DNA of 18,459 nucleotides, taken from the NCBI GenBank assembly GCA_005792225.1, contig SXSP01000397.1:1-18459 (forward strand), given 5' to 3'. This DNA comes from Bdellovibrionales bacterium (lineage in GTDB: Bacteria > Bdellovibrionota > Bdellovibrionia > Bdellovibrionales > JAMPXM01). A program made the translations under genes and the position numbers. This document shows, piece after piece, positions 1 through 14,664 of the stretch (positions within the stretch are counted from its first letter, which is position 1; each line of letters starts with the position of its first letter). The notes beneath the pieces were generated by a model. It was given only the letters and a program-made list of their open reading frames with translations, was not told the origin of the DNA and made no database searches.

Positions 1-106
1 GGCGCCTCGGAGAGAGCGTGTCGCGCGTGAGCTGCGTGCGCAGGCGGGCTTCAACGAAAACGAGATCGCGCTTCTCGAAACCCTCACCGGTCAGCAAGGA
101 GCCTGA
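1..106 (+). CDS. C-terminal end of an unidentified protein (5' end outside window)
   Basis: An open frame runs from base 2 to a TGA at 104-106 and gives a 34-residue C-terminus that is charged and probably helical, ending in LLETLTGQQGA. The stop is directly followed by the ATG of the DUF4870 gene (TGAATG), which suggests one transcript and coupled translation. Too little is visible to name a family. That it is coding is inferred from the open frame, the typical amino-acid composition and the tight junction with the next gene. Confidence 0.55.
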   Translation, partial: APRRERVARELRAQAGFNENEIALLETLTGQQGA

Positions 107-604
107 ATGAACACTGCGGCTACCCATCATCATGGCGATCGAACTTGGAGCATTCTCTGTCACCTGGGCGGGCTCGGTCTCTTTGCGCTGCCGCTGGGTC
201 ACTTGATCATTCCGGCGGTCATCTGGTTTGCGAGGCGAGATACTGATCCCGAAGTGCGAGAACACGGCCGAGTGTCTCTGAATTTCCAGCTCACCTTGAC
301 CTTGATCGCGTTCGTTCTCCTCGTGATCATCGCGATCGGCGGGATTCTTATGATGATCTCAGGGTTCACGATCGAGGGGGTCGATCACCTCTTCTCGGCG
401 CTGGGAAGGGTCATCGGGCCATTCTTGATCGTGGCGGTCGCCGCATCGGCTCTCGCATTAATGGGGCTTCTCAATCTTGTTCTGATTGTCGTCAACACCG
501 TTCGCGCTTACGATGGTCGAGCCCCTGAATACTGGCCGGTGATCTCGTTCTTTAAACCTGAATCTGCGCCTCAGGTCGGGCTCGAAGACAGGAGTTCTCA
601 ATGA
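107..604 (+). CDS. DUF4870 domain membrane protein
   Basis: This 165-residue protein fits the DUF4870 family, small integral membrane proteins of unknown function. Seen: an N-terminal W-S-I-L-C-H-L-G-G motif (about 14-22), an Ile/Pro-rich first membrane segment (about 22-41), the family signature of a charged loop with E-H-G-R-V-S-L-N-F-Q (about 52-61), two long hydrophobic segments (about 62-87 and 103-135), and the closing motif with A-Y-D-G-R and Y-W-P-V. The start follows the stop of the upstream gene with no gap, and the last bases (ATGA) overlap the next gene. It is probably the middle member of a three-gene operon. Its role cannot be read from the sequence. Confidence 0.85.
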   Translation: MNTAATHHHGDRTWSILCHLGGLGLFALPLGHLIIPAVIWFARRDTDPEVREHGRVSLNFQLTLTLIAFVLLVIIAIGGILMMISGFTIEGVDHLFSALGRVIGPFLIVAVAASALALMGLLNLVLIVVNTVRAYDGRAPEYWPVISFFKPESAPQVGLEDRSSQ

Positions 605-1104
605 AAAGTTTCGCTGCCGTGATGATCCTGACATCGATTCTTTTGATGAGCGGAGCGAATGCGGCGCCCGAAGAATCAAAACCAACGAGCCTGAAGATCG
701 ATAGCGAAGTTTTCACGCGCGAGTCGATCGTCGAAGTTGGCGGTAGAAAGTACCGCAAAGTCGAGTTCAAAAACCAGGTGGTGTATCTTCAGCTTTTAAG
801 TGAGGAAACGACCGGGGCTGACCTTCAACTTCTCTGCGAACGCGAGGGAGTTTCGGCCTTTCAGGGGCAGCCGCAACTTGTCTTGGCGAGTGTCAAGGTC
901 ACGCGCCGGTCGAGCTTGTTCGTTGAAGGCTTACAGCAAGTCTGCTCGGATAGCCGAGGCGGCAAGAAGAGGATCACGCTTGATCCCGCGATTCACGTTG
1001 GCTTTCTTTTTCACGATCGGAACGAAGATAAGGCCCTTCTGCGAAACAAACGGGTTTTCATAAATCCATTTGGTTCGGGCATTGGCTTCAAGGCTGATTG
1101 GTAA
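601..1104 (+). CDS. small exported protein, unknown function
   Basis: This 167-residue protein has a clear Sec signal peptide (positive n-region MKS, hydrophobic core 4-17, cleavage near A-N-A-A-P at about 19-22). The mature part is rich in charged residues and beta-type segments, with two cysteines (in LLCER and QVCSDS) that could form a periplasmic disulfide. The ATG overlaps the stop of the DUF4870 gene by four bases, which implies translational coupling. It ends two bases before the stop codon of the oppositely oriented pseudouridine synthase gene. I do not recognise a family. Confidence 0.75.
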   Translation: MKSFAAVMILTSILLMSGANAAPEESKPTSLKIDSEVFTRESIVEVGGRKYRKVEFKNQVVYLQLLSEETTGADLQLLCEREGVSAFQGQPQLVLASVKVTRRSSLFVEGLQQVCSDSRGGKKRITLDPAIHVGFLFHDRNEDKALLRNKRVFINPFGSGIGFKADW

Positions 1105-1106
1105 TT

Positions 1107-1835
1107 TTAAAATTTCTCGCTCGGCCTCAGAAAACGCCATTTGCCCTCGGGAAGATTCCCGAGCATGACGCGACCCACTCGCACGCGTTTAAGACCGACG
1201 ACCCGAAGTCCGACGAGCTCGCACATCCGGCGAATTTGCCGTTTTTTTCCTTGGCGCAAGATGAACCGAAGTTGATCGCTGTTGAGCCAAGAAACCTGAG
1301 CCGGTTTAAGTTTTTCGCCGTCGAGTTCAAGACCATGATTGAGGAGCTTCAGCTCGCGATCTCCGATCGAGCCACGAACGCGAACGAGATACTCTTTTTC
1401 GATTGAACTGTCTTCGCCGATCAGTTGCTTGGCGATTTGTCCGTTTTGCGTGAAGACTAATAAACCCTGCGAATCGATGTCGAGTCGCCCTGCCGGTGCG
1501 AGACCTTCGAAGTGTTTGCGCGAGAGGCGTGGTTCGTTTCCGTCCCGCTCCTGCGAGTCGGGAGTGATCAGGCGAACGGCCGGTTCGTAGTCCTTTTCGG
1601 GCTGACCAGAGACGTAGCCGACGGGTTTATTCAGAATGATGGTGACCAGAGTATCGAGTTTGGTTTGTGCTTGCGGCAGGAGTTCGATTGTCGCCGTCGG
1701 CAAAACTTTTGTTCCCAGCGTCGAAATGATCTCGCCGTCAACTTTGACCCAGCCCTTCGCGATGAGCTCATCAGCCTCGCGTCGGGAGCAAAGGCCTCGT
1801 TCAGCCATTAATTTTGAGAGGCGCACGGGTTCCAT
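1107..1835 (-). CDS. RluF/RsuA-type pseudouridine synthase
   Basis: This 242-residue protein isomerises uridine to pseudouridine in structured RNA, most likely rRNA. An N-terminal S4 RNA-binding domain (about 3-50, with the C-S-R-R-E-A-D motif at 16-22) is followed by the catalytic domain. The catalytic aspartate is D119 in [10 protein letters not shown]. The family motifs N-K-P-V-G (69-73), E-K-E-Y-L-V (146-151) and G-K-K-R-Q-I-R-R-M (196-204) are all present. The R-R-M-C-E tail of that motif resembles RluF/RluB more than RsuA, but the RNA target cannot be read from sequence. The frame is open further upstream to 2078; I chose the ATG at 1835 because the S4 domain begins there and the longer version would cover the promoter and start of the divergent gene. 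Confidence 0.9.
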
Positions 1836-1854
1836 CGACCCTTCATAAAGGTGC

Positions 1855-1883
1855 TTGCAAAGGAAAGCAATGGCCCGTTTAAT
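1855..1883 (+). promoter_or_regulatory. sigma-70-like promoter of the exported protein at 1906
   Basis: TTGCAA (1855-1860) and TTTAAT (1878-1883) are separated by 17 bases. The -10 matches the consensus at five of six positions and the -35 at four of six. Transcription would start near 1890, a few bases before the Shine-Dalgarno AAAAGGAG (1893-1900). This supports the ATG at 1906 and argues against the in-frame ATG at 1855, which lies inside the promoter. Confidence 0.5.
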
Positions 1884-1905
1884 TCTCAAACGAAAAGGAG
1901 CCTTT

Positions 1906-2625
1906 ATGAGAAAACTTCTGGGTGTGATGGCCTCGTGCGCTTGTTTGCTTTCGGTCCCGGCTTTGGCTGCGGAGGGCGGATCCAAAGGGCAAGTCTTTGA
2001 ACTGAAAGGACCGGAGGACAAACCCATCGCGCTTTTCTCAAAAGATGTGCAAAAGAAAGAGGGCCTCACGGTGTCCACTTCCGTTTACACGGACCCGGCA
2101 GGAAAAGAACTCGTGCGAGAGGTCACCGAGCTTGAGAAGGCGGGCGACAAGGACCGGGTGAAGTCCTACAAGATCAGTCAAAAGCAACTCGGAGCTGAAG
2201 GTGTCGTCGAAGTTAAAGAGGGGAAGGCACACTTCTCATACACCCGAGATGGAAAGACCAAGACATCACAGGAGAGCGTCGGCGAGGATTTCATCGTTGG
2301 ACCTTTCATTGTGGACTATATCCAGCGTTACTGGTCCGAAATCTCCGGCGGAAAGAAAATCAAAGCGCGCTTGGCGGTCCCTGATCGCCAAGAAACGGTC
2401 GGCTTTGAGTACACGCGCGAAGGCGAAGAAGACGTGAACGGACAAAAGACCGTCGTCGTTAAAATGAAACCATCGAGCATCATCATCTCCGCCCTCGTTG
2501 ACCCCTTGCGTTTCTATTTCACGCCAGACGGCAAGCGACTCATTCAGATGCGTGGTCGCACTCAGGTGAAGCGACAGGACGGATCAAAATTCAAAGATAT
2601 GGATGCGAAAACGAACTACGACTGA
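1906..2625 (+). CDS. exported periplasmic protein with DUF3108/LolA-like tail
   Basis: This 239-residue protein has a standard signal peptide (MRKLLGVMA..., cleavage after A-L-A near residue 21). The mature protein is strongly beta-type, with alternating charged and hydrophobic residues. The C-terminal part, with [15 protein letters not shown], resembles the last strands of DUF3108 or LolA-like lipid- or lipoprotein-handling folds; this is a weak resemblance. The start has an excellent ribosome binding site (AAAAGGAG, five bases upstream). The gene ends inside the last codons of the convergent PTPS-like gene (10-base overlap). It could be an envelope carrier protein, but no catalytic residues stand out. 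Confidence 0.7.
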
Positions 2626-3002
2626 GACTGGTATTCAAAATAATTTTTCCGCGTCTCCTGAATTCCGACGCGAACGAGATTCGGAAGAGGCCCTTTTAAC
2701 CGATCATAGATCGCGATCGCAAGGGCCTCGCCCGAGGTATTCGAAAAAATTCTGTTGAGATCTTTTCCGTCGAGCGGATCGACCAAATTTTCTCGCAAGA
2801 TGCGGTCGAGGGCGTCGCGGTCCATGAGAAGTGACGAGCGGGAATCAATTTTCCCCTCGATCGTCACGCGCACTTTGTAGTGATGGCCGTGTTGGCCGTA
2901 GCAGATGCCGTAAAGGGATTCGTTCTCGGCCGGCGAAAGCTTGGGATTCTCGAGATTATGGATGCCGCGAATGGTGACTTCTCGGGTCAGTTGCATCTTC
3001 AT
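2616..3002 (-). CDS. PTPS/QueD-family protein lacking the catalytic His
   Basis: This 128-residue protein belongs to the 6-pyruvoyltetrahydropterin / 6-carboxytetrahydropterin synthase family. The zinc ligands are visible as H15 and the H-G-H pair H38/H40. The catalytic Cys is C34, and the C-x3-H-G-H spacing is that of bacterial QueD. The substrate-anchoring Glu is E116 (Q-E-T). The usual L-D-H-x-x-L-N motif reads L-D-G-K-D-L-N (77-83), so the Asp of the Cys-Asp-His triad stays but the His is Gly. The ATG overlaps the stop of the upstream paralogue by four bases (ATGA), so the two are probably co-translated. It may have altered chemistry, or may work in a mixed complex with the neighbour. No queC or queE homologue is nearby, so a queuosine role is not supported. 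Confidence 0.85.
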   Translation of the reverse strand: MKMQLTREVTIRGIHNLENPKLSPAENESLYGICYGQHGHHYKVRVTIEGKIDSRSSLLMDRDALDRILRENLVDPLDGKDLNRIFSNTSGEALAIAIYDRLKGPLPNLVRVGIQETRKNYFEYQSQS

Positions 3003-3421
3003 TCGATTTCCACCCAGAGATCGTCTGTTTCAAAGAGCCGGAGCCGCTTGAGCTTGAGAGACGGATGCCGCGTCTGCAATTCGATTCGAACCTTCTCTCG
3101 CAAATAGAGAGCGATGTTTTCGGTGGTCGGGACCTTCTCTTTAAATTCCGCGACATCGAAATTCAGGTGTTGGTGATCGAGCGGATCCGTCACTGTTAAG
3201 AGAATCGAGTCGAGATCAGTCAGATCAATGACCATCTTGGTTCGCTCGTCAATTCGACCCTCAACGAAAATTTCGAGCACATAGTTGTGGCCGTGACCGT
3301 GCGGAGTGTGACATCGGCCGAATGTTGCGAGGTTCTCCTCCCGCGAGAACTTTTTTTGATCGTAGAGATGCGCGCTTGAAAAAAGACGTCGGCGGGCGAT
3401 GACGGCGGTGCGGGTGTCCAT
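2999..3421 (-). CDS. 6-pyruvoyltetrahydropterin synthase-type enzyme (PTPS/QueD family)
   Basis: This 140-residue enzyme of the PTPS/QueD family acts on 7,8-dihydroneopterin triphosphate, giving either the 6-pyruvoyl or the 6-carboxy tetrahydropterin. All expected residues are present: zinc ligands H18 and H43/H45, catalytic C37, D82-H83 in L-D-H-Q-H-L-N, and the anchoring E131 in F-E-T-D. The C-x5-H-G-H spacing (C-H-T-P-H-G-H-G-H-N-Y) and the phrases P-T-T-E-N and F-E-T-D-D resemble animal PTPS more than E. coli QueD. It lies four bases after the SDR stop and overlaps the second PTPS-like gene. With a reductase in the operon, biopterin-type synthesis is plausible, but a queuosine-precursor role cannot be excluded. 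Confidence 0.88.
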   Translation of the reverse strand: MDTRTAVIARRRLFSSAHLYDQKKFSREENLATFGRCHTPHGHGHNYVLEIFVEGRIDERTKMVIDLTDLDSILLTVTDPLDHQHLNFDVAEFKEKVPTTENIALYLREKVRIELQTRHPSLKLKRLRLFETDDLWVEIE

Positions 3422-3425
3422 GGAT

Positions 3426-4166
3426 CTAGGATCCCGCTAAAATGATTCCGCCGTCAACCGAGAGCGATGCGCCCGTGATCCACTCCGAACCGGGGCCCGA
3501 TAGAGAGTAGATCGCGTGCGCGATGTCTTCCGGGCGTCCCACGCGTCCTAGGGGTTGCATCTTCTCGAACTGCGCCCTCAAGCTTGAGTCCATTTTATCA
3601 AAGGAATGTATGGGCGTATCGACGATGCCTGGGCAAACGCAATTCGCACGTGCGCCCGATGGAGCAATCTCGAGGGCCAGGGCTTGAGTCCAATTGATCA
3701 TCGCTGCCTTGAGCGCTGAGTAAACGGAGGTCTCGGCGACGGGTTTGAGACCTAAGGTGGATGAGACATTGATAATGACGCCGCGATTTCTCTCAATCGC
3801 TTTCAAAAAGGCCCGCGTGATGCGAACTGAACCCATCAAGTTTGTTTCAAAGGTGCGTTGCCACAATTCATCCGTTGAATCGGCGAACCGCTTTCGCTCG
3901 TAAATGCCGGCGTTGTTCACCAAGACCGACAGAGTCTCGTAAAACGGAGGTTGCGCCTGGATCTTCTTGGCGAGTTCTTCTACGTCCTTTATGCGGGAGA
4001 GGTCGCAAGTGACCGGCAGAACTTTCTTAGGTGCCGCTGTCGCCAAATTCTCGAGCGGCTCGGCCCTGCGGCCGACGGCGATAACCTGCCAATCGTTTTT
4101 CAGAAAGTGTTCGGCGGTGGCTTTACCGATTCCGGTTCCGGCTCCGGTGATCAAGACGGTTTTCAT
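3426..4166 (-). CDS. short-chain dehydrogenase/reductase (SDR)
   Basis: This 246-residue classical SDR has the Rossmann glycine motif T-G-A-G-T-G-I-G (7-14), N-N-A-G (84-87), catalytic serine in N-V-S-S-T (133-137), and Y149-x3-K153 in the active site. R33-R34 after the second strand suggests NADP(H) preference. The C-terminus (P-G-I-V-D-T-P, V-D-G-G) is FabG-like. It is the first gene of a three-gene unit with two PTPS-family genes. Inference: it reduces a pterin intermediate, in the manner of sepiapterin reductase or a dihydromonapterin/dihydrobiopterin reductase. A general 3-oxoacyl or sugar reductase is the alternative, since SDR sequence alone does not reveal substrate. Confidence 0.88.
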   Translation of the reverse strand: MKTVLITGAGTGIGKATAEHFLKNDWQVIAVGRRAEPLENLATAAPKKVLPVTCDLSRIKDVEELAKKIQAQPPFYETLSVLVNNAGIYERKRFADSTDELWQRTFETNLMGSVRITRAFLKAIERNRGVIINVSSTLGLKPVAETSVYSALKAAMINWTQALALEIAPSGARANCVCPGIVDTPIHSFDKMDSSLRAQFEKMQPLGRVGRPEDIAHAIYSLSGPGSEWITGASLSVDGGIILAGS

Positions 4167-4195
4167 TTAGACCTGCGCTCGAGCTGGGGGCTTGC

Positions 4196-4223
4196 GGCAG
4201 CCGCAGGAAATTCCCGGGCTGCC
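4196..4223 (-). other. stem-loop between histone and SDR genes
   Basis: GGCAGCC (4196-4202) and GGCTGCC (4217-4223) form a perfect seven-base inverted repeat with a 14-base loop. It lies in the 71-base gap between the histone stop and the SDR start. No T-run follows in either direction, so it is not a classical intrinsic terminator. It could weaken read-through or protect the 3' end of the histone mRNA. Confidence 0.35.
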
Positions 4224-4237
4224 ACAAAGGGAAAGAC

Positions 4238-4450
4238 TTAGAAGTCGTAGCCGCGAACGGTTTTGCGACCGTTTTCTTGAGCGCGTTTTACCGCGTTCGT
4301 GAGCATCGCGTGAACTTTTTCGTTGAGATGTTCAATCGCATCGCCCGCGACGTTGCAGCCCGCGTTGCGGATTGCGTCTTTCATTTTGCTTGCGACGATG
4401 ACGATCTCTTTTTTACCGCCGCCTTTTCCTGACTTTTTTCCTTTTGCCAT
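4238..4450 (-). CDS. bacterial histone-fold protein (Bd0055-like)
   Basis: This 70-residue basic protein is predicted to bind DNA as a histone-fold dimer. Residues 1-14 are a Lys/Gly/Ser tail. Helix 1 (about 15-29, KEIVIVASKMKDAIR) is followed by a short loop with G-C-N-V, a long amphipathic helix 2 (about 36-60), and loop 2 reading G-R-K-T-V-R (61-66). That loop nearly repeats the G-R-K-T-I-K loop of archaeal histone HMfB, whose Arg-Thr pair stabilises the fold. The chain ends at G-Y-D-F, so helix 3 is almost absent, as I recall for the Bdellovibrio histone Bd0055. The Shine-Dalgarno AAGGAGG (4456-4462) is very strong and five bases from ATG, suggesting high expression. It sits between an HD-GYP gene and the pterin operon on the same strand. 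Confidence 0.88.
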   Translation of the reverse strand: MAKGKKSGKGGGKKEIVIVASKMKDAIRNAGCNVAGDAIEHLNEKVHAMLTNAVKRAQENGRKTVRGYDF

Positions 4451-4474
4451 TGAGGCCTCCTTCTAGGTCCCCAA

Positions 4475-4503
4475 ATTTGAATAGAGGCCTTTTGCGAAGT
4501 CAA
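4475..4503 (-). promoter_or_regulatory. sigma-70-like promoter of the histone gene
   Basis: Read on the minus strand, TTGACT (4498-4503) and TCAAAT (4475-4480) are separated by 17 bases. The -35 matches at five of six positions and the -10 at four of six. Transcription would start about 17 bases before the ATG, leaving just enough leader for the ribosome binding site. A palindromic AGGCCT lies in the spacer (4485-4490) and another next to the ribosome binding site (4453-4458), 32 bp apart. Confidence 0.45.
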
Positions 4504-4532
4504 AGGAAACGCGCGGGTTGTGGTGCGGGTGC

Positions 4533-6209
4533 TCAGCCGACCTTGCGAAGGCGCATGCCGTCTGCCGAGCGGAAGACTTGGGCGTCAACGAAGATCTTGA
4601 GCAGATCGAGATCAAGCTTTCCGCGGCGGGCTTCCCAATGCAAAATCTCGAGAGCACGGTCGGCGCTGAGCGCGGGTTTATAGGGACGATCCATCGATGT
4701 CAGGGCATCGTAGATATCCGAGATCGTCATGAGCTTCGCTTGCACCGGGATGTGCTCGGCGGTGAGTCCACGTGGGTAGCCGCTTCCGTCGCACTTTTCG
4801 TGGTGAGCGTGGGCGATATCGGGAACACTACTCAAATCCTCGGTCCATGCGATCTGGCGGAGAAAGTGATAGGTGTGGCTCACGTGCGATTCGATCTCGC
4901 GACGTTCCTCTTCGCTGAGAGAACCCTTCGGCATCGAGAGCTTGATGATCTCCTCGGAGGTGAGGAGGGTTTGGTCAAGCTCGCGCGAAGCCTTGTTGAT
5001 CCAAGACATGAGCGAGGCAATGTCGAAATCCTCGGCGACGACCTGAGGTTGATTGGCTTTTAGAATCGACAGACGAACTTGCTGGAGTTGTTGAGCGAAT
5101 TGATCGATTCGCTTCGTCACGGCTCCGAGTTTCTCGCGGGGTGGAGCGTGCGGGTGACCCTTCTCGAACATGTCGACGAGTTCCATCGCCATTTCTTTCC
5201 ACGCCATCATCTCTTGACGGGCGCGCGCGGAGTCGAGGCGAAGGAGGATGGTCTCCATCTCGTGCGGGTAGAGTTTGAGTTCCTTGCGGAGAACGGACTC
5301 TCGAACGCCGATCTTTCCGAAGTCATGCAGAAGGGCCGCGTACCGAAGTTCTCGGATCTGTTGTTCTGAGAAGATGACATCCTTATGCGGGCCATCCGAG
5401 CATTGGTGAACCGCCCGGGCGAATTCAACCGTGAACACCGCGACGCGGTCGCTATGTCCACTCGTGGAAGGATCTCGAGATTCGATCGCGGTGACCGACG
5501 CGCGAATAAAGCTCTCGAAGAGATTTTCGATATCCTCGGTGAGTTTCGCGTTCTCGATCGCAACCGACGCTTGTGAAGCGAAAACTTCCATGAGCTCTTG
5601 ATCTTCATCCGTAAACGGGATCACGTCATCAAAGTTAATGATGCGTCTATTCTTATGCGCGGCAGAGTCTGTGCCCGGGCGAATCTTGTTCAAGATCTGG
5701 AGGACGCCGCGGACTTTCCCGTTTGAACTCTTCATCGGGATGGTGAGCATCGAGATGGTTTTGTAACCCGTCTCCTCATCCACTGCCGTATTGAATTTAA
5801 ACGGCGTATCGTTGGTCAGCTTGTAACAATCATCAACCCGCACGGATTCGCCGGTGAGCGCGACGTAGCCGGCGATGCTCGTGTCGTCGAGCGTGAGGAC
5901 CTTGTCGTGCAACTCCTGTTTCGCCGCGCGATTGGCGTTACGATGGAAGCGCAAGACCGTGAAGAATTTTTTATCCGTGTTGCCGATCGAGTCGATCTTG
6001 ATGTTTTCGGTCAGTGAGATGCTCGCCGAGTCCGCCTCGGTCGTCTCGAGCGCTTTCTCCAAAATCAAATCGAGTATACGGCCGAGTTCTTTTTCGCTCG
6101 AGAGCGCAACACCGATATCGACGAGTGATTTGTATCGATCGTTGGAGCGGGCGGGAGCATCGGCAGGTTGGACGCCGGACTTTTTCGTGGCACTCGATTT
6201 TCGCTTCAA
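4533..6209 (-). CDS. GAF / HD-GYP cyclic-di-GMP phosphodiesterase
   Basis: This 558-residue protein has a GAF sensor domain (about 28-222) followed by an HD-GYP domain (about 230-535), a family that hydrolyses cyclic di-GMP. Seen: G-H-S-D-R-V (251-256), the H295-D296-F-G-K-I-G-V motif, the metal-ligand H442 in E-S-H-V, and H-H-E-K-C-D-G-S-G-Y-P-R-G-L (469-482), so it looks active. About 118 residues (roughly 310-428, Lys/Arg/Glu/Gln-rich and helical) are inserted between the HD motif and H442. No signal peptide or membrane segment is present, so it is cytoplasmic. The start is TTG at 6209, with GGGAG about ten bases upstream and an in-frame TAA shortly before it. The ligand of the GAF domain is unknown. 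Confidence 0.92.
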   Translation of the reverse strand: MKRKSSATKKSGVQPADAPARSNDRYKSLVDIGVALSSEKELGRILDLILEKALETTEADSASISLTENIKIDSIGNTDKKFFTVLRFHRNANRAAKQELHDKVLTLDDTSIAGYVALTGESVRVDDCYKLTNDTPFKFNTAVDEETGYKTISMLTIPMKSSNGKVRGVLQILNKIRPGTDSAAHKNRRIINFDDVIPFTDEDQELMEVFASQASVAIENAKLTEDIENLFESFIRASVTAIESRDPSTSGHSDRVAVFTVEFARAVHQCSDGPHKDVIFSEQQIRELRYAALLHDFGKIGVRESVLRKELKLYPHEMETILLRLDSARARQEMMAWKEMAMELVDMFEKGHPHAPPREKLGAVTKRIDQFAQQLQQVRLSILKANQPQVVAEDFDIASLMSWINKASRELDQTLLTSEEIIKLSMPKGSLSEEERREIESHVSHTYHFLRQIAWTEDLSSVPDIAHAHHEKCDGSGYPRGLTAEHIPVQAKLMTISDIYDALTSMDRPYKPALSADRALEILHWEARRGKLDLDLLKIFVDAQVFRSADGMRLRKVG

Positions 6210-6224
6210 ACGGATGACTCCCGA

Positions 6225-6266
6225 TTAGACTTCACAGTCTTATCGACAGTTTACGATGAAGTCTAA
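6225..6266. repeat. 10-bp inverted repeat in the HD-GYP leader
   Basis: TTAGACTTCA (6225-6234) and TGAAGTCTAA (6257-6266) are perfect reverse complements separated by 22 bases; the arms repeat every 32 bp. They lie 16 bases upstream of the TTG start of the HD-GYP gene and follow the end of the SBP gene. AGTCT (6237-6241) between the arms can instead form a short five-base hairpin with the 6227-6231 part of the start-proximal arm, so two mutually exclusive RNA structures are possible. The arms could equally be operator half-sites. Confidence 0.55.
6240..6266 (-). promoter_or_regulatory. possible sigma-28 (FliA)-like promoter of the HD-GYP gene
   Basis: On the minus strand, GTCGATAA (6240-6247) matches the FliA -10 consensus GCCGATAA at seven of eight positions. 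Eleven bases upstream, TTAGACTT (6259-6266) matches the -35 TAAAGTTT at only four of eight. The arrangement would place the -35 on one arm of the inverted repeat and +1 near the other. The -35 is weak, so this is tentative. Confidence 0.25.
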
Positions 6267-6295
6267 ACGCGCACCAGGCGTTCTGGACCGAAGAC

Positions 6296-7894
6296 TCAGG
6301 GCTTTTTCTTCTCGGACGGGACCCGCGTCTTTAATCCAGCAAGGTTTAGCTGATTCATCTCATTCAGGGACCAACCCGTGAACTGCGGATTGACAAGAAG
6401 CGTGAAGCTAGCTCGACCGAGCGGTATCAACCTGTTCTCATCGATGAGTCGCGCGACACCTTGGCTACAGAGTTTCCGTTTCGCCTCGGCAGAAGTCGTG
6501 TTCGCGAGATCTTTGATGATCGCTTCAAGTCGCGGATCTTCAATCTTCAGAAAATTCTCAGGACCTCCGGCCGCGAAGGTCTCGAGCGCCGCAAGACAAG
6601 TCGGGCGCTCAAGGTGCATCCCTTTGCGAAAAATCGGCGGCGGTTTGGTTTTCAGCGTGTGAATGTGAACACCTTGTTCAACCTGCTCAAGCTCAACGTG
6701 AAAGCCGAGGTTTTTCTTCCACTGGGCTTGAAACCACTCGGCTGTTTTTTTGATGTCGTCGCCGCCCAATTTGGAAAACGTCATGCGAAAGCGCTTGGTC
6801 CTCGTTTCTTCGGAGAGTTTCGCGAATTTTTCGCGAGCGAGTTGAGGATTGAACTCCAAGCACGTGAGAGGATTCAAGAGTTTTTCGGAGATGCCGGGGC
6901 AGCCGCCGCGCTGACTTCCTTCGAGGATCTTCGCGATCTCCCCGTAGTCCACCGACATTGAGAGCGCTGCGCGAAGGTCGGGGAGATGGCGCAGTTCTTC
7001 CCCGAAGCCGATGTAGTCAAATCGAGCGACGGGAATTTGGATGAAGTCGGGCTTGGTTTTGTATCGACCGATGTAAGTCGCCGGAAGCCGTCTGAGGAAA
7101 GTGAGCTCGCCTTGGTCGTAAAGATTCAGCGCGGTCTGATCATCATCGATCATCAGAATCTCGACGGGAGGTCGCGCCTCGAACCCCTCGTAGCGTGAAT
7201 TTGGCTCAAGGCGAATTCGACGGCCCGGAGTCCACGATGCAACTTTGTAAGGGCCGTTGACGACCGTTTGCGCAGAATCTTCTCTTTTTGGAAATTTCTC
7301 GGATTTGACGGGAACGAGCACGCTGTGCGTGAGCTTGTATAAGAAATCTTGATCACGTGATTCGAAGTCGAAGATGAGTCGATGAGAGCCCTGAGCTCGG
7401 ACTCCGAGTTGGTCGGCCGCCATTTTTCCGGCATGAATCTCGACCGCGTTTTTAACCCGCTTCAAAAGTTCAACACTAAGACTCCGCGCCGTTGGCGTTA
7501 CGAGCCGGCGAAAGGCGCGTACGTAGTCGTCGGCCACGACGTCCGTTCCGTCGCTCCACTTTCGATCTTTTTTAAGTCGGCAGGAGATGCGGCGAGGTGT
7601 TTCGAATGCGCATGACTGGGCGCCCTCGGGCTTGAGGCCCTCGCTTTCGTGGTAGGTGTAAAGCCCCCTCATGACGTTGATGAGAAAATAACTGGCATCG
7701 CTTGAAACGAGGAGCGCGGGATCGATCGAGGATGGCTCCGTCGGCATGTGAAAGCGGAACACGGGTTTTGTCTCAGCTTGAGACGCCGGCGTGAGCATCA
7801 GACTGAGGACGAGGAGCAAATAAAACGCAGGGGAGGGGAGTTGACTGCGAATTCCTCGCGAAATCCGTGTCCCCGACTGAAGTCTCCGTCTCAT
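6296..7894 (-). CDS. oligopeptide/dipeptide-type solute-binding protein (SBP_bac_5)
   Basis: This 532-residue exported protein is like OppA/DppA, the periplasmic receptors of peptide ABC importers. The signal peptide has an arginine-rich n-region (MRRRLQ...), a hydrophobic core (about 22-35) and cleavage after S-Q-A (about 40). The mature start, F-R-F-H-M-P-T-E-P-S-S-I-D-P-A, is the family's usual opening. R-K-W-S-D-G-T, D-D-Y-V-R-A-F and V-N-G-P-Y-K-V are typical SBP_bac_5 landmarks. The frame is open to 8029, but I chose the ATG at 7894 because the signal peptide begins there and the longer form would overlap the divergent lipoprotein gene. The ribosome binding site is weak. No permease or ATPase gene adjoins it, so it may serve a distant transporter or act as a sensor or chaperone. 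Confidence 0.85.
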   Translation of the reverse strand: MRRRLQSGTRISRGIRSQLPSPAFYLLLVLSLMLTPASQAETKPVFRFHMPTEPSSIDPALLVSSDASYFLINVMRGLYTYHESEGLKPEGAQSCAFETPRRISCRLKKDRKWSDGTDVVADDYVRAFRRLVTPTARSLSVELLKRVKNAVEIHAGKMAADQLGVRAQGSHRLIFDFESRDQDFLYKLTHSVLVPVKSEKFPKREDSAQTVVNGPYKVASWTPGRRIRLEPNSRYEGFEARPPVEILMIDDDQTALNLYDQGELTFLRRLPATYIGRYKTKPDFIQIPVARFDYIGFGEELRHLPDLRAALSMSVDYGEIAKILEGSQRGGCPGISEKLLNPLTCLEFNPQLAREKFAKLSEETRTKRFRMTFSKLGGDDIKKTAEWFQAQWKKNLGFHVELEQVEQGVHIHTLKTKPPPIFRKGMHLERPTCLAALETFAAGGPENFLKIEDPRLEAIIKDLANTTSAEAKRKLCSQGVARLIDENRLIPLGRASFTLLVNPQFTGWSLNEMNQLNLAGLKTRVPSEKKKP

Positions 7895-7950
7895 CTTGTC
7901 GATAAATGGGTCAGAATAGAGAGACGGGAGAAACCGCTTTGCGTCCAACG

Positions 7951-8493
7951 ATGAAACGATTCTCATTCCTGGTTTCGATATTTGCCATCTCATTGTCGCT
8001 CGCCGTTGTCTTTCAGAATTGCGGGACATATCAAACCGGAATCAACCCCTTGACGGATGATCGCGAAGAGGCCGAGTGCATCGGTGTCTCCTGCAAACTC
8101 GATCTGGAGTTCGTCGAGCTGGTCGTCGCAAACGCCCAGCCCATCGGAATCAAAAAGCCCACGACCACGCCGAAGTTCTGCGATCCCTCAACCTGCTTTG
8201 ATCTTGCGGGCTACTGCAACACCGCCGGCTACAAACAGTCCTATATCTACTATCAATGGCGCCTGAATAACAGCTTGATCGGCCAGAGAATCACGACGGG
8301 TCTCGGATGTGACTCGATGGGCCGCTTCCGCATCTTGGTACAAATCCCGCCGCCGCAGTCGCACACCTTCAATTATGGCGATCTCTACTCCGTCGAGGTG
8401 AGCATGACCGTGGTCGACGAAAACGACGTTGAGCAGGGAAATCCCACCGCCGGCGTGAGCACAAAGCTCGTACCCGTCGTTGGCATCGACTGA
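7951..8493 (+). CDS. Cys-rich lipoprotein-like exported protein
   Basis: This 180-residue protein has an N-terminal hydrophobic segment (4-21) ending in V-F-Q-N-C-G (20-25). C24 sits where a lipobox cysteine would be, although N at -1 and F at -3 are not the usual lipobox residues. Endings of the form FQNCG are, from memory, common among Bdellovibrio exported proteins. Six more cysteines follow (43, 48, 77, 82, 89, 120), enough for three disulfides. The rest is beta-rich with no recognised domain. I start at 7951 (MKRFSF) because the upstream in-frame ATG at 7906 adds 15 polar residues before the signal sequence; neither start has a strong ribosome binding site. It is divergent from the SBP gene (56 bp) and ends four bases from the convergent PotD-like gene. 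Confidence 0.7.
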   Translation: MKRFSFLVSIFAISLSLAVVFQNCGTYQTGINPLTDDREEAECIGVSCKLDLEFVELVVANAQPIGIKKPTTTPKFCDPSTCFDLAGYCNTAGYKQSYIYYQWRLNNSLIGQRITTGLGCDSMGRFRILVQIPPPQSHTFNYGDLYSVEVSMTVVDENDVEQGNPTAGVSTKLVPVVGID

Positions 8494-8497
8494 GTCT

Positions 8498-9571
8498 TCA
8501 GCGGGGTTTTGCAGCCTCGATCGCGCCGCGAACTTCGCGCGCGCGGCTAAAATCTTGCCACAAAATAAATTGATCAAAGGGACTCGCGCGCAAGTGCGAA
8601 GGCTTCAGGCGCGAGTCAAAATTGGCGAGTTCCTCAAGTGAACGGTTTGTTGAGGCTTGCTTCGCGGATTCCGTCAGCCGCTTGGCGTTTTCGCGTTTGA
8701 GCATGGCATCGAGAAACTTATACGCTTGGTCTTCTTCGCTCGCATCGCGGGTCATGGCGAGCGACAAAATCCAAAGAGTTGCCTTCTCCCGCGGTAGTTG
8801 AAACTTCCACTTGTTAAAAGGCGGAAAAGCCATTTCGCCATGGCTGGCGAGCGCGACTTCCAAATTCGAATCCGCTTGAATGAGCTCGCGCGCACTTAAG
8901 AAATCCTTCGCGAGAACGGCACCTTCGAGCCAAGGTTGAAGGGATTTCGTTAACGGCGCGGCAATCGCCTTCCCGCTTGGCTTTTCGATTTGCGAGAGGC
9001 GCAAGAGTTCAATTGTCGAAGAGGGAAGGCCCACCTTTCCCTTTAGCTTCGCGTTTTCAATCACGCCCATCCACGAGTCGAGAGAGCCGTGTTTGCAGGA
9101 ATCAAAAGCAATGCCGGTCAACCCCCAGAGGAGCGGGATCACTTGGTGCAGTGCCGGATCGCCAGGCAGATCAATGAAGTCAGGAGAGATTGCATCTTGA
9201 TTTACGAGTCTGCGCGGGAGAATGGCTTGTAGCCACCCCAGCTGCGCTGCCAGCGGCACTTGATAAGAGAAGAGCGTCACGAGATCGGGGGCTTCACTCC
9301 CTCTTCGTTTCTCGAGCTGGTCCCAAAGCTCTTCAGGTGTTGAGACTTCTGAAATACTCAGCTCAACGCCTGCGTCCGTCATGATGGCTGACTTCAACTC
9401 AGGACTGAAGAGATCTTTGTAAGCTAGGATTTTGAGTGCAGGAATCGGAATTGCGCTCGCGAGGCGTGCCTCGCGATCAAAGTAGATTTTGAGACCCACG
9501 CCGATTCCGAGAAGCAGCGAGACGCCGATGGCGATGACGAGCGGTTGGGAGAAGCCAGTTGTTTTTAGCAT
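8498..9571 (-). CDS. membrane-anchored PotD-like solute-binding protein
   Basis: This 357-residue protein has one N-terminal hydrophobic segment (about 10-29) with no obvious cleavage site, so it is probably anchored in the inner membrane facing the periplasm. The rest follows the spermidine/putrescine (PotD/PotF) binding-protein layout: a first strand L-K-I-L-A-Y-K-D-L-F, a second lobe entry P-D-L-V-T-L-F-S-Y-Q-V, and I-P-L-L-W-G-L-T-G-I-A-F-D, which corresponds to PotD's Y-I-W-G-A-T-A-I-G. The ATG lies within the last codons of the upstream CDF gene (7-base overlap, ATGCTAA), indicating coupled translation. No ABC permease is present. The ligand could be a polyamine, another small cation or a metal complex; the sequence does not tell. 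Confidence 0.75.
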   Translation of the reverse strand: MLKTTGFSQPLVIAIGVSLLLGIGVGLKIYFDREARLASAIPIPALKILAYKDLFSPELKSAIMTDAGVELSISEVSTPEELWDQLEKRRGSEAPDLVTLFSYQVPLAAQLGWLQAILPRRLVNQDAISPDFIDLPGDPALHQVIPLLWGLTGIAFDSCKHGSLDSWMGVIENAKLKGKVGLPSSTIELLRLSQIEKPSGKAIAAPLTKSLQPWLEGAVLAKDFLSARELIQADSNLEVALASHGEMAFPPFNKWKFQLPREKATLWILSLAMTRDASEEDQAYKFLDAMLKRENAKRLTESAKQASTNRSLEELANFDSRLKPSHLRASPFDQFILWQDFSRAREVRGAIEAAKPR

Positions 9572-10548
9572 GTCTCATCATCCGACGCCGAATGGGGATG
9601 CTCCGCCGACAAACATGTTTCAAGCGTGGCCTGTGCGCCCTGGGCTTTCGCAAACGCACGCACACCGTCTTTTACGCGCTCGATTTCTTGAGGATCACGG
9701 ACGGAATGAAGGTGGAGCCTTGCCGAGAGGACACTGGATTCGCCGTCAAGAGACCACACGGCCAGCTGATCGACCTTCTCAACTCCGTGCACGGAGAGTG
9801 TTTCACGTAGGAATCGATCTGAATCGAAGTTTGCCGGTCGCCCTTGAAGGAAAAGATAAAGGGTGCTCTTTAAGTACCGCAAAACATTGAACATGACGAA
9901 TCCGGCAAGCGCGATTGCGAGCACCGGATCGATCCACGCGGCGCCCGTGAAATGGATGACGATCGCGCCGACCAGCACGACGGCCCAACCGAGGACGTCT
10001 TCAATCAAATGCCACGTAAGAACGCGTTCGTTTTGCGTGTTCCCCCTCGAGAGATTCCAAGCTGCGAAGCCGTTGACCGCAAGACCGAGGAGCGCAAGAC
10101 CCATCATGGGAAGCGCCGCCGGAGGCGTCGGTTGTGAAAATCTTTGGACCGATTCGATGATGATAAAAATTGAACCAATCGTGATCACGACGCCCGAGAT
10201 CAGCGCCGAGAGCAGTGAAAATCTTCGATAACCAAAGTTAAACTGCCGATCCTTACCCCGGTTAGCAAAACCCTCTAAAAACCAAGCGCCACCGAGACTC
10301 ACCGAATCGCCGAGATCGTGAACCCCGTCGGCCACGATCGCCATGCTTCCCACCCAGAGTCCCCCGATCACCTCGATGATGCTGAAGGTGAAATTCAAAA
10401 AGAACGCGAGCCGAATATTTTTCGTGGCCGAACCGTGGTGATGATGGTGATGATGATGGCCGTGCCCATGACTGTGATTGTGGCCGTGATGGCCCGAGGG
10501 CCCATGATCATGGTCATGACTGTGCGTGCTCTCGTGTCGTTCTTTCAT
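9565..10548 (-). CDS. zinc-type cation diffusion facilitator with His-rich N-terminus
   Basis: This 327-residue CDF transporter (CzcD/ZitB/ZnT type) exports Zn2+ or related metals in exchange for protons across the inner membrane. The transport site is seen as H77 and D81 in A-D-G-V-H-D-L-G-D on the second membrane helix and H180 and D184 in W-H-L-I-E-D-V-L-G on the fifth, the His/Asp combination of zinc transporters. Six hydrophobic segments lie between about 46 and 230, followed by a cytoplasmic ferredoxin-like domain with A-R-L-H-L-H. The first 40 residues hold 19 histidines, including eight in a row, a likely metal buffer or sensor. It is followed by, and overlaps, the PotD-like gene. The Nudix gene diverges only 30 bp away. 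Confidence 0.92.
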   Translation of the reverse strand: MKERHESTHSHDHDHGPSGHHGHNHSHGHGHHHHHHHHGSATKNIRLAFFLNFTFSIIEVIGGLWVGSMAIVADGVHDLGDSVSLGGAWFLEGFANRGKDRQFNFGYRRFSLLSALISGVVITIGSIFIIIESVQRFSQPTPPAALPMMGLALLGLAVNGFAAWNLSRGNTQNERVLTWHLIEDVLGWAVVLVGAIVIHFTGAAWIDPVLAIALAGFVMFNVLRYLKSTLYLFLQGRPANFDSDRFLRETLSVHGVEKVDQLAVWSLDGESSVLSARLHLHSVRDPQEIERVKDGVRAFAKAQGAQATLETCLSAEHPHSASDDETC

Positions 10549-10578
10549 CTTCTCTTGAATCTAGAGGGGGCCCAATCC

Positions 10579-11073
10579 ATGAGCAAGGCGAATCTCGAGA
10601 CACCCGTGCGGCACCGAGCTTGCGCGGTCTGTGTGCGAGGCGCGGAGCTCCTCCTTGTGAAAATGAAAGATCCGACATCTGGCGCAGAGTTCTGGACACC
10701 TCCGGGCGGAAAAATCGAGCCTGATGAAACGAGCGAAAGCGCGGCCATACGAGAAGCGCTTGAAGAGACGGGTTATCGTGTTCAGATCGCAAACCTCGCG
10801 CCCGTGGTTGCCCAGTACGACTTCGAGTGGGACGGACGCCTCAACCGGTGCCGAACGGTCTTTCACCTTTGCGGTCTCGCTCAGGAAGAATCTCAACCGT
10901 CACGGGTGACCGATGCGGACTATATCCTAAGTGCCCAGTGGTTTGATTTGAGTGAGGCGGTGGCTCTCCTAAATTTTCATCCCGTGATTCAAGCGGCCGT
11001 TCGGGACTGTCTCGGCTGGACGGATCCAGCCGACTTCGCTAAAGCTGAGAGCCGTAAACCTTCCGGAAGGTAG
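10579..11073 (+). CDS. Nudix hydrolase
   Basis: This 164-residue protein carries a complete Nudix box, G-G-K-I-E-P-D-E followed seven residues later by R-E-A-L-E-E-T-G-Y, which binds Mg2+ and cleaves nucleoside-diphosphate-linked substrates (residues roughly 43-66). The surrounding W-T-P-P-G-G and C-terminal A-Q-W-F-D-L-S-E are typical of small NUDIX enzymes. Substrate cannot be deduced. The start at 10579 is preceded by GAGGGGG (10564-10570), eight bases upstream; the frame is open to 10318, but that part lies antisense to the CDF gene's His-rich region and is not coding. The aldehyde dehydrogenase gene begins seven bases after its stop, so the two are probably one operon. Confidence 0.9.
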   Translation: MSKANLETPVRHRACAVCVRGAELLLVKMKDPTSGAEFWTPPGGKIEPDETSESAAIREALEETGYRVQIANLAPVVAQYDFEWDGRLNRCRTVFHLCGLAQEESQPSRVTDADYILSAQWFDLSEAVALLNFHPVIQAAVRDCLGWTDPADFAKAESRKPSGR

Positions 11074-11080
11074 AGGCGCC

Positions 11081-12514
11081 GTGCGACTGCAAAATTATAT
11101 CTCAAGCGAGTTCGTAGATCCCAGCGATCAAAAATGGTGTCCGCATCACAATCCTTGGACGGGGGAGATCTCGTCTGAGGTCCCCGATTCTGATGTGATC
11201 GACGTCGTGCGGGCGATTCAATCCGCAAACAAAGCGCTCCCGAATTGGCTGAAAGTTGATGTCGAGCAGCGCGCCCGCTTTCTTGAAGCGATCGCCGTCG
11301 GTCTTGAGTCGAACGCTTCGGAGCTCGCGCGCCTTCAATCGGAAGATGAAGGATGTCTCGAAGCTCACGCACTTCAAACGTCAATCCCGCGGGCAGCCTC
11401 GGTCTTCCGACTTTACGCAAGGTTCATGCTCGATGATCGGTCCGTGAGCGTCTCGTCCAACAAAGCTCACTTCTTTACGCACCGAAATCCCCACGGCATC
11501 GCCGCGATCATCTCCCCGGCCACTGATCCCTTGGTGATGATCTCCCTTCGCGTGGCGCCTGCGCTGGCAGCCGGGAACGTGGTTCTCCTCAAACCCTCGG
11601 AGTACGCACCCAAGACCGCAAACGCGTTTGCGCAAACCGTGCACGGCGCAGGTCTTCCGTCGGGCGTTTTCAATCTGGTGCAGGGGAGGGGAGAAAAAGT
11701 CGGAAAGACCATCTCCACGCACCCTGGGCTTTCTCTGATCTCGCTCATCGGCCAGACGGAAACGGGACGAGAGCTTCAGCGAGATGCAGCCGAGTTTTTA
11801 AAACGCACTCACTTAAGTTTGAGCGGAAGAAATCCCGTTCTGATTTTCGCGGGATTCGATCTTAAAAAAGCGATGCCCGCGATTTTAGCCTCGACCGTGC
11901 GGTTTGAAGGACCCGGTTGCTTGCGCGGTTCGCGCATTTTTGTGCAAGAGACGATCTATAAAGAATTTCTCGAAGCGTTTCGCACGAATCTCGAAACACT
12001 TTCTCCGACGCAAATCGGACCGGTCAATCGCGCGTCTCACCGCGCCCGTTTCGAAGCTGCCGTTCAACAAGCCCTCGATGAAAAGGGCAAACTCCTCACG
12101 GGCGGGATCGGAGACCCTGAGGGCTTGGATGAAAAATATCGCGGCGGGTATTTCGTAAAACCCACGGCGATCTACGATCTTACGAACTGCTCGACTCTCC
12201 AGCAAGAAGAAGTGCCTGGACCCTTTGTTACGATTTCCTCTTTCAAGTACCAACATGAAGCCCTCAAGCACGCGAATACGGGCCCGCTGGGACTTGCGGG
12301 TTACGTCTTCGAAACTCAAGGCGCCAAGGCCTTGCGAGTCGCGCAAAAGCTTGATGCCGGCCGTGTTTTCATTAATTCTCCCGGCGCCGTTGCCGACGAG
12401 CGCGTTCCGTATGGGGGATTAAAGAACTCCGGTGTCGGAATCGAAGGTGCGGCCGCGATGATGGATTTCTTCTCTAAGCCCAGCTTGATCGCGAATTATT
12501 TCGCCGCGGATTAA
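11081..12514 (+). CDS. aldehyde dehydrogenase family protein with altered active site
   Basis: This 477-residue protein follows the NAD(P)-dependent aldehyde dehydrogenase fold. Conserved: L-L-K-P-S-E (169-174), the nucleophile C280 in G-P-G-C-L-R-G-S-R, Q-E-E-V-P-G-P and P-Y-G-G-L-K-N-S-G-V-G. Two catalytic positions differ. The oxyanion Asn of S-P-W-N-F-P is Thr (S-P-A-T-D-P, T148), and the general-base Glu of L-E-L-G-G-K is Ser (L-S-L-S-G-R, S246). The protein may therefore catalyse another reaction, such as a thioester or acyl transfer using only the Cys, or have lost activity. The start is GTG at 11081, with GGAAGG about ten bases upstream. It lies between the Nudix gene and the exported protein at 12533 in one direction with short gaps. 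Confidence 0.9.
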   Translation: MRLQNYISSEFVDPSDQKWCPHHNPWTGEISSEVPDSDVIDVVRAIQSANKALPNWLKVDVEQRARFLEAIAVGLESNASELARLQSEDEGCLEAHALQTSIPRAASVFRLYARFMLDDRSVSVSSNKAHFFTHRNPHGIAAIISPATDPLVMISLRVAPALAAGNVVLLKPSEYAPKTANAFAQTVHGAGLPSGVFNLVQGRGEKVGKTISTHPGLSLISLIGQTETGRELQRDAAEFLKRTHLSLSGRNPVLIFAGFDLKKAMPAILASTVRFEGPGCLRGSRIFVQETIYKEFLEAFRTNLETLSPTQIGPVNRASHRARFEAAVQQALDEKGKLLTGGIGDPEGLDEKYRGGYFVKPTAIYDLTNCSTLQQEEVPGPFVTISSFKYQHEALKHANTGPLGLAGYVFETQGAKALRVAQKLDAGRVFINSPGAVADERVPYGGLKNSGVGIEGAAAMMDFFSKPSLIANYFAAD

Positions 12515-12532
12515 GCCGGCGCCGGAAAGGTT

Positions 12533-13756
12533 TTGAAAATGGTAGCCCTATTTTTGATAGTAGCGCTGGCCCTCTCAGGTTCGGTTACAAACGTTGCAAG
12601 AGCCGATGTTTGGGAGACTTCATCGAATTGGAATGCGCGGGCCGAGAGCGCCTACCAAGCTTGGGTCACCACGAAGTGGCAGAAAAACTTTTTTAAAAAG
12701 CCTGGCTTTTACCAAAACATCGCGATGGATTGCGCCGACACCGTGTACGCAATGCGACTTGTTTACGCGGCCGAGAATGGTCTTCCCTTCGCGATGAAAG
12801 ATCCGACAGGCGGCGGAGGCATCATCTCAAATGAGATGACTCGTTGGGATCATCTGCCGCCTGACCTGAGGAAGCGCGAGTTCTTAAAATTTGTTTACAA
12901 GATCGCAAGTACATCGTCTCTCCCGAACGACTCTTACCCCGTAGCGGTCAACCGCGCGGCGATTGGCGCGGGGAGATTCCTGTTAACGGATAAAGCAAGT
13001 CATCATTCGTGGACGATCAAGTCGTTATCTGAGCACGGAGTGCCATTCCTGCTCTTTGCCTCGAGGCCCGCGCGTATCGGACTCTTCGAAAGATTTGAGT
13101 ATCCCACGGTCCCTTTTGTTTTTCCCAACGGAATCAAGCCCGAAACTCACGCGGGCTTCCGTGCCTTCCGTCATCCCCGCGACTTAGGAAAGGCCGTCTG
13201 GCAGGTGCCGGGCTACAGTCTCGAGCAGTACACGATTCCCCACAAGAATTGGGCGAGCCAAATGCAGAAGCGCCTTGCTTTAAAGAGCGAAGGAGCCGAT
13301 CAAAAGCTCATGCGAATCCTCGCTAATGCCTGCCAGGGAGCCGTCGAGCGAATCGATGCGGTGAAGAGAGGTGACGAAATCAACCGAAGTCTTGGCGGTG
13401 CTTGCATGACTTCCATTCAATTCGACGATCACTCAACCCCGAGTCGAGATTCAAGACTGAAGGGGAGCTTCATCGAGCTTCGGGACTCCTATCGGCGCTA
13501 TTTGAGAAACGGAAAACGCATCTCCCCGCGCGTAAGAGCACAGGTTGAGGCTGTCCTCGCCGGTGACGAGGGAGTGGATCAAGATGATTTTTGTCCCGTT
13601 CAGATTGAGCGGCGAACCACTCTGACGCTGGGCCAGGTTTATGTTCGGAGCCTAAACGATATGATGTCGGCAGACCCCCACGACTCCATCGCGCAACGCT
13701 GGGGGCTTCAACGATTCCCAAGTTCTAAGGCGAATTCTTGCCGTCATTTCCGATGA
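12533..13756 (+). CDS. exported protein with candidate Cys/His catalytic residues
   Basis: This 407-residue protein has a signal peptide (MKMVALFLIVALALSG, cleavage near A-R-A at 22-24). The mature N-terminal half contains M-D-C-A-D-T-V-Y-A-M-R (C67) at the start of a likely helix and S-H-H-S-W-T-I (H157/H158) entering a likely strand. A Cys at a helix start and a His at a strand start are the pattern of papain-like folds (NlpC/P60, transglutaminase, CHAP), so a secreted peptidase or amidase acting on peptidoglycan or prey protein is possible. No named family is matched by eye. I give the TTG start at 12533, which supplies a Lys to the signal n-region (GGA six bases upstream); ATG at 12539 is the alternative. 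It overlaps the next gene by four bases. Confidence 0.75.
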   Translation: MKMVALFLIVALALSGSVTNVARADVWETSSNWNARAESAYQAWVTTKWQKNFFKKPGFYQNIAMDCADTVYAMRLVYAAENGLPFAMKDPTGGGGIISNEMTRWDHLPPDLRKREFLKFVYKIASTSSLPNDSYPVAVNRAAIGAGRFLLTDKASHHSWTIKSLSEHGVPFLLFASRPARIGLFERFEYPTVPFVFPNGIKPETHAGFRAFRHPRDLGKAVWQVPGYSLEQYTIPHKNWASQMQKRLALKSEGADQKLMRILANACQGAVERIDAVKRGDEINRSLGGACMTSIQFDDHSTPSRDSRLKGSFIELRDSYRRYLRNGKRISPRVRAQVEAVLAGDEGVDQDDFCPVQIERRTTLTLGQVYVRSLNDMMSADPHDSIAQRWGLQRFPSSKANSCRHFR

Positions 13757-14475: not shown

Positions 14476-14534
14476 AAGAGACCTCCGATCCAAGACCTCG
14501 GGCTATTTAAGGTCTGGCCCTTGTGAATTGAGAC

Positions 14535-14551
14535 CCGAAACCTCGGTTTTT
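14535..14551 (+). terminator. weak terminator-like hairpin after the 13753-14475 gene
   Basis: CCGA (14535-14538), loop AACC and TCGG (14543-14546) are followed by TTTTT (14547-14551). The stem is only four base pairs, so termination efficiency is doubtful. A second hairpin, AGACCT with AGGTCT, lies just upstream (about 14497-14519) and has no T-run. Confidence 0.3.
14538..14549. repeat. palindrome AAACC-TC-GGTTT, copy 1
   Basis: Perfect five-base half-sites separated by two bases. It shares the AACC/GGTT core with the elements at 14703 and 14965. It overlaps the weak terminator hairpin, so it may be only a by-product of that structure. Confidence 0.4.
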
Positions 14552-14578
14552 GCGATGAAATAGGGCTACCCTCATACC

Positions 14579-14606
14579 TTTACTCCGTCTTTTCGTAACA
14601 TAATAT
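14579..14606 (+). promoter_or_regulatory. weak promoter candidate for the CPBP protease gene
   Basis: TTTACT (14579-14584) and TAATAT (14601-14606) are separated by 16 bases, each matching the sigma-70 consensus at four of six positions. This is the most AT-rich spot of the intergenic region (C-A-T-A-A-T-A-T-T-A). The distance to the ATG at 14848 would give a long leader. Confidence 0.3.
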
Positions 14607-14652
14607 TACTTATCAGAACCATTTTCCCAGATCGATCGTCTAGCCCTTTCTC

Positions 14653-14664
14653 GGTTCTCGAACC
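14653..14664. repeat. palindrome GGTTC-TC-GAACC
   Basis: Perfect five-base half-sites with a two-base spacer, in the opposite half-site order (GGTT first) to the neighbouring AACC-N2-GGTT palindromes. It lies between the promoter candidate and the palindrome at 14703. Confidence 0.4.

Follow-up and report, generated by a model that had tools for sequence, protein, structure and literature searches.

Bacterial histones include proteins that bend DNA as dimers, such as HBb (Bd0055) of Bdellovibrio bacteriovorus, and proteins that wrap it as tetramers, such as HLp of Leptospira perolatii. HLp belongs to the face-to-face (FtF) type, described only recently, takes up about 60 bp of DNA and is only the second bacterial histone, after HBb, to be characterised both structurally and functionally (PMC12701072). 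To which of these types does the small basic protein belong that is encoded in an 18,459-nucleotide stretch of DNA from a Bdellovibrionales bacterium (GenBank assembly GCA_005792225.1, contig SXSP01000397.1, positions 1 to 18,459 of the forward strand; hereafter the window)? With a probability of roughly 0.85, we read it as an FtF histone with a truncated third helix (alpha3), whose handshake dimers would close into a DNA-wrapping torus assisted by a lysine-rich tail, in a genome that also encodes HBb- and ZZ-type histones. The elements of the gene are as follows.

4238..4450, minus strand: FtF-type histone gene by our assignment, 70 aa plus stop (open reading frame, homologues, model, structural alignments)
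4409..4450, minus strand: N-terminal Lys/Gly/Ser tail, residues 1-14, mostly below 50 in the predicted local distance difference test (pLDDT) (model, tail counts)
4364..4393, minus strand: helix 1, residues 20-29; K22, K24 and R28 match the HLp DNA contacts K15, K17 and K21 (model, alignment)
4274..4339, minus strand: helix 2, residues 38-59, with R56 (HLp R49, dimer-dimer contact) (model, alignment)
4241..4273, minus strand: N60, loop 2 (G61-R62-K63-T64-V65-R66) and one-turn helix 3 (67-69) (model, alignment)
4456..4462, minus strand: Shine-Dalgarno sequence AAGGAGG (by reading)

The reading frame starts with an ATG at 4450, ends with a stop codon at 4238-4240 and encodes the 70-residue protein MAKGKKSGKGGGKKEIVIVASKMKDAIRNAGCNVAGDAIEHLNEKVHAMLTNAVKRAQENGRKTVRGYDF. 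Loop 2 (residues 61-66) reads G-R-K-T-V-R, presumably resembling GRKTIK of HMfB, and the chain closes four residues later with G-Y-D-F (GRKTVRGYDF). A 14-residue Lys/Gly/Ser tail precedes helix 1, and AAGGAGG at 4462-4456 is separated from the ATG by a 5-base spacer. On all these points, a histone-fold protein of this length with these ends, its tail and a strong ribosome binding site, the reading frame, translation and AlphaFold2 model bear out a preliminary description of the locus. A protein search returned 96 other proteins (weakest E 2e-8), which together with the query form the set of 97 used below, and the closest relative from the genome search, an orthologue in genome G001, is 84% identical; over the 56 fold codons of this pair, 29 are identical, 20 differ synonymously and 7 nonsynonymously. 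Because of the 96 homologues, the gene order kept in relatives and the mostly synonymous codon change, the frame can be regarded as a real gene rather than a chance one. Its lysine codons are AAA and AAG in a ratio of 10:1, compared with 97:82 in nine window genes (lysine codons only), too small a basis for reading codon bias as a mark of high expression.

Sequence decides the class. A search of solved structures matched HLp at E 9.6e-12, as against E 3.7e-4 for HBb. In HLp, R49, N53 and R55 are the conserved tetramer residues, and R55 pairs with D62 in an RD clamp (PMC12701072); counted back from the C-terminus, these four positions correspond to R56, N60, R62 and D69 of the window histone, kept in 96, 95, 97 and 97 of the 97 homologues, with R62-D69 as the predicted clamp pair. 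Loop 2 and helix 3 also carry the motif RxTxxxxD (R62-K-T64-V-R-G-Y-D69), whose R, T and D are present in 97/97. The conserved FtF pair R48/N52 (HLp R49/N53) is found in the window histone, whereas bacterial dimer histones are reported to lack both residues (PMC11390915); at the R56 and N60 positions, the HBb of the same genome has S and D, and its ZZ-type histone N and E. The protein thus shows neither mark of a dimer histone, grouping with HBb or absence of R48/N52, and judged by its sequence it groups with the FtF histones HLp and HTkC, the latter from the archaeon Thermococcus kodakarensis (PDB 9f2c; 30% identity). It is a well-supported addition to the bacterial FtF histones, tailed members of which have already been published. 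A Pfam and NCBIfam scan of the protein gave sub-threshold matches only (PF00808, E 0.01; NF043032, E 0.0012), and the top Pfam row, FAM25 (E 0.0014, below its cut-off), was taken as chance.

The AlphaFold2 single-chain model, based on an alignment of 50 rows (50 of the 97 homologues), has a mean pLDDT of 84.6 and places helix 1 at residues 20-29, helix 2 at 38-59 and helix 3 at only three residues (67-69), after which the chain ends within one residue, in agreement with the truncated helix 3 of the preliminary description; the tail is disordered, with pLDDT below 50 over residues 1-5 and 7-12. The short helix 3 (3-4 residues) and shortened helix 2 of FtF histones are both seen in the model, and the full-length helix 3 of archaeal nucleosomal (HMfB-type) histones, which spans about 10 residues, is absent. 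The top Foldseek match is HLp (46-47% identity, root-mean-square deviation 0.6 Å, template-modelling score to target 0.97), followed by HBb and HTkC (0.9-1.0 Å), with nucleosomal archaeal histones more distant; VIA-align scored HLp at 8.6 and 8.5, HTkC at 7.7, HBb at 7.6-7.5 and HMfA/HMfB at about 5.5. Since the gap between FtF histones and HBb is about one Z, the fold establishes only an alpha3-truncated histone, and the class is set by the sequence. It had also been proposed that so short a helix 3 would limit the tetramer contact, which holds for the four-helix-bundle contact of archaeal histones but fails for FtF histones, where tetramers with an equally short helix 3 form through another interface (PMC12701072); on our analysis, the short helix 3 is part of the very contact that makes FtF tetramers.

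The protein had been taken for Bd0055 itself or a near relation of it, extended by a basic tail, and hence for a DNA-bending dimer histone. The same fold, an equally short helix 3, a shared RKTV in loop 2 and a detectable similarity of 29-35% are all compatible with such a relationship; however, the solved HBb chains (PDB 8cmp, 8fvx, 9ezz and 9f0e) are 29-32% identical to the window histone, match it less well than HLp does, and have neither such a tail nor the R and N of the FtF contact. The genome, an assembly of 3.19 Mb in 546 contigs that is 64.5% complete, encodes a distinct HBb: its three histone matches are the window gene and two others, of which L002 (1504-1698, G000:C391), on another contig, is a 64-residue HBb/Bd0055 orthologue (E 1.9e-29 to PDB 8cmp) that is 35% identical to the window histone. 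With the FtF, HBb and ZZ proteins as separate queries against 140 genomes of the order, HBb-type matches (E <= 1e-18) were found in 124, one of them (G135) with internal stops, and FtF-type matches (E <= 8.4e-12) in 20, all with the R and N and all accompanied by a separate HBb-type match in the same genome. The weaker match, the genome's own HBb orthologue and this coexistence led us to reject Bd0055 orthology, which, with R56 and N60 in place, is hardly credible. The next-best FtF matches were one at 3.1e-9, an additional gene in a genome already among the 20, and one at 1.8e-8 in G121 that is of HBb type by sequence. As a separate observation, 79 of the 97 homologues share the loop 1 Cys at residue 32 (4355-4357), which also has a counterpart in the HBb of this genome (GGCN).

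The third histone gene, L003 (1249-1716, G000:C245), encodes a longer protein. Its C-terminal half matches 8cmp at E 3.7e-11 and is an HBb-like histone fold; its N-terminal half, by reading, has seven of the eight Cys/His ligands at the published ZZ spacing (PMC11390915), the sixth lying two residues later. In a Pfam scan, neither its ZZ nor its histone part exceeded the cut-off; the ZZ query used there began two residues after the first zinc-ligand Cys and so contained all but the first of the eight ligands. ZZ-type matches (E <= 1e-13) were obtained in 60/140 genomes, four of them doubtful (G019, G021, G081 and G093), and all three histone types together in 9/140; because the assemblies are incomplete, absences in these counts are soft. 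Two short frames of 100 and 78 aa (G021:C11:571275-571457 and G081:C17:23191-23370) match the ZZ half only and may be either histone-free ZZ domains or disrupted genes, while L097 (6001 onward) contains a tandem double FtF-like histone fold within one frame.

Earlier surveys provide a frame for these numbers. Homologues of Bd0055 and Bd3044 have been reported in 67% and 37% of Bdellovibrionota genomes, respectively (PMC10627809), and FtF histones of the phylum have been assigned predominantly to the class Bacteriovoracia, with dimers in the class Bdellovibrionia (PMC11390915). In contrast to that division, FtF and HBb types stand side by side in 20 of the Bdellovibrionales genomes searched here, which suggests that the two types overlap across the classes more than this statement conveys, although the supplementary tables of that paper may already list genomes with both. 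A full-text literature search linking FtF histones with Bdellovibrion yielded nothing beyond two Nature Communications papers. The presence of bending-type and wrapping-type histone genes together in one bacterium is the most useful fact to emerge: HLp and HBb come from different organisms, whereas a genome with both types allows the bending and wrapping roles to be compared in one cell.

Compared directly with HLp (PDB 9qt0, 9qt1 and 9qt2), the window protein shares the fold, the chain end after a one-turn helix 3, the residues equivalent to R49, N53 and R55 and the RD clamp, and a flexible N-terminal stretch likewise lies ahead of helix 1 in HLp. Its seven additional residues all fall in the tail, made up almost entirely of Lys/Gly/Ser. 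Differences at other positions involve the HLp hydrogen-bond residues S52 and T61, replaced by E59 and Y68, and the HLp DNA contacts T27 and T56, replaced by V34 and K63; these substitutions are genuine differences and could tune the tetramer. The gene neighbours differ as well, those of the HLp gene being SMC and MAP in many Leptospira (PMC12701072).

The tail was surveyed in the 97 proteins, after about five longer N-termini had been trimmed to an inner MAK-like start. It comprises 7-24 residues ahead of the fold (median 13) with a net charge of +3 to +9, and consists of 45% Lys, 22% Gly, 20% Ala and 8% Ser, with an acidic residue in only one tail. Lys outnumbers Arg by 567:7 in the tails, as compared with 498:409 in the fold; since nine other window genes contain 179 Lys and 218 Arg, the preference for Lys is a property of the tail. 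After trimming, 91/97 proteins begin with MAK, and no further common tail motif was seen by eye among the 97. FtF genes from other families of the order have some Arg in longer tails. Among the 65 of 80 named-genome loci that were listed, most rows from Bdellovibrionota have a tail, as do many from Myxococcota and several from Acidobacteriota; next to no tail is seen in two rows from Bacteriovoracaceae and in some others, and the Diapherotrites-type archaeal proteins start almost directly at the fold. This distribution agrees with Schwab et al. (PMC11390915), where bacterial FtF histones are described with a basic tail without conserved sequence, as in the window protein, and archaeal ones as generally tailless; most bacterial singlet histones are reported to be without long tails (PMC10627809). 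With a constant fold and tails whose composition, but not sequence, is preserved, the family offers a small, naturally occurring series in which to study the tails of bacterial histones.

Taken together with the fold, these features suggest how the protein may work. Two chains would form a handshake dimer, and R56, N60, R62 and the one-turn helix 3 would join two such dimers in a torus, as the residues kept from HLp imply. By analogy with HLp, DNA (about 60 bp in that protein) would wrap this core through the lysines and arginine of helix 1 and through loops 1 and 2. Judging from its composition, the disordered tail would add a sequence-independent electrostatic grip on wrapped or neighbouring DNA, and the histone would act beside the DNA-bending HBb-type dimer and the ZZ-type histone of the genome.

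Within this scheme, the standing of the protein in the cell and the use of its tail admit other interpretations. Given the HBb and HU-family genes, the window histone might be a minor, specialised histone rather than a major nucleoid protein, a suggestion that we hold only tentatively. Two HU/IHF-family genes (PF00216) and the HBb gene in the same incomplete genome, the restriction of the FtF gene to 20 of 140 genomes, and the expression of the FtF histone of Thermococcus kodakarensis at a level 34 times below that of its main histone (PMC11390915) all point that way; against it stand the strength of the Shine-Dalgarno sequence and the gene's own promoter-like element, which recurs in the family (described below). 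Lys is almost the sole basic residue of the tail, and given the near absence of Arg, it may be subject to modification. A tail used mainly for protein docking or lysine modification, with the genome's ZZ-type histone as its reader, would fit this composition, the presence of that histone and the binding of H3 tails by eukaryotic ZZ domains (PMC11390915). We nevertheless consider such reading quite improbable: a ZZ domain as reader of FtF tails gained no support from co-occurrence in the 140 genomes, ZZ matches being no commoner with FtF (9/20) than without it (51/120; Fisher p 1.0; 9/20 and 47/120, p 0.63, when the four doubtful matches are left out), tail sequence is conserved only at the first residues while length varies from 7 to 24, and the idea is itself judged unlikely in PMC11390915. 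The non-specific electrostatic role is favoured because composition is kept without sequence. A more ambitious proposal combines the HBb bending dimer, the Lys-tailed FtF wrapping tetramer and the ZZ-type histone into a switch between bent and wrapped chromatin with the tail as its adjustable component. That the genes coexist is an observation; how the histones divide the work, and any switching between states, is conjecture, and the proposal as a whole seems to us unlikely.

The descent of the gene was approached through a fold tree of 81 rows and 56 columns, built without the rows L012, L033, L034, L139, L041, L099, L103 and L109, without the ZZ and HBb rows L150, L180, L181 and L183, which had been intended as an outgroup, and after removal of 12 more rows (near-copies, L097 and L098). 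The eight members from the window's own taxonomic family form a single clade (96/81). The order's 10 other FtF rows in the tree fall outside it, and Acidobacteriota, Myxococcota and other rows are interspersed among those 10. Constraining the family and those 10 rows (18 in all) to group together was rejected in the approximately unbiased (AU) test (p-AU 9e-12), whereas grouping the family with that whole interspersed set (32 rows) was not (p-AU 0.41), nor was grouping it with the Diapherotrites-like rows (p 0.46). Given the 32-row result, the idea that this gene arose in the family independently of the FtF genes elsewhere in the order is not upheld, and vertical descent and horizontal transfer are both compatible with the 56-column tree. 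Diapherotrites-type archaeal FtF histones (L044, L046-L049 and L051, the last in a complete genome record) are 54-61% identical to the window protein over the fold, nearer to it than many from bacteria, and others of this type go down to 48%.

Around the histone gene, the following features were recorded.

4533..6209, minus strand: GAF plus HD (HD-GYP-like) gene, upstream neighbour (domain scan, family loci)
3426..4166, minus strand: short-chain dehydrogenase, downstream neighbour (domain scan, family loci)
4475..4503, minus strand: promoter-like element TTGACT-N17-TCAAAT (pattern drawn post hoc from the same sequences)

The GAF-HD gene (E <= 1e-100) was found in nine of the 13 family genomes searched, the window's included, and the FtF gene lies directly behind it in seven of these nine loci, again including the window. 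In G002, the dehydrogenase comes after the GAF-HD gene, with the histone on another contig; in G005 (57% complete), GAF-HD is joined to the dehydrogenase and the histone was not found; in the remaining four of the 13 genomes, neither GAF-HD nor FtF gene was found. None of the window genes was found beside the histone at five FtF loci that lie outside the family, where one weak partial GAF-HD match is 3 kb off (L126). The element TTGACN-N15-18-T(C/G)A(A/G)A precedes all eight family FtF genes, compared with a mean of 0.01 of 8 in single-base shuffles, a count made post hoc after the element had first been seen by eye. A sigma-70 scan gave no site in 3400-6300, as expected from a second hexamer whose position 2 is C. 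Since the element precedes all eight genes, even the relocated one of G002, the histone gene is probably transcribed from a promoter of its own rather than simply within a neighbour's operon, and the neighbouring genes say little about histone function.

The GAF-HD protein contains HDFGKIG and GSGYP, which we take to be an HD-GYP-like motif; the 173 residues between them make an unusually long gap. At 2616-3421 on the minus strand, two tandem 6-pyruvoyl-tetrahydropterin-synthase-like genes (PF01242) overlap by four bases; both are matched in G001 and G008, and one only in G003, G007, G009 and G010.
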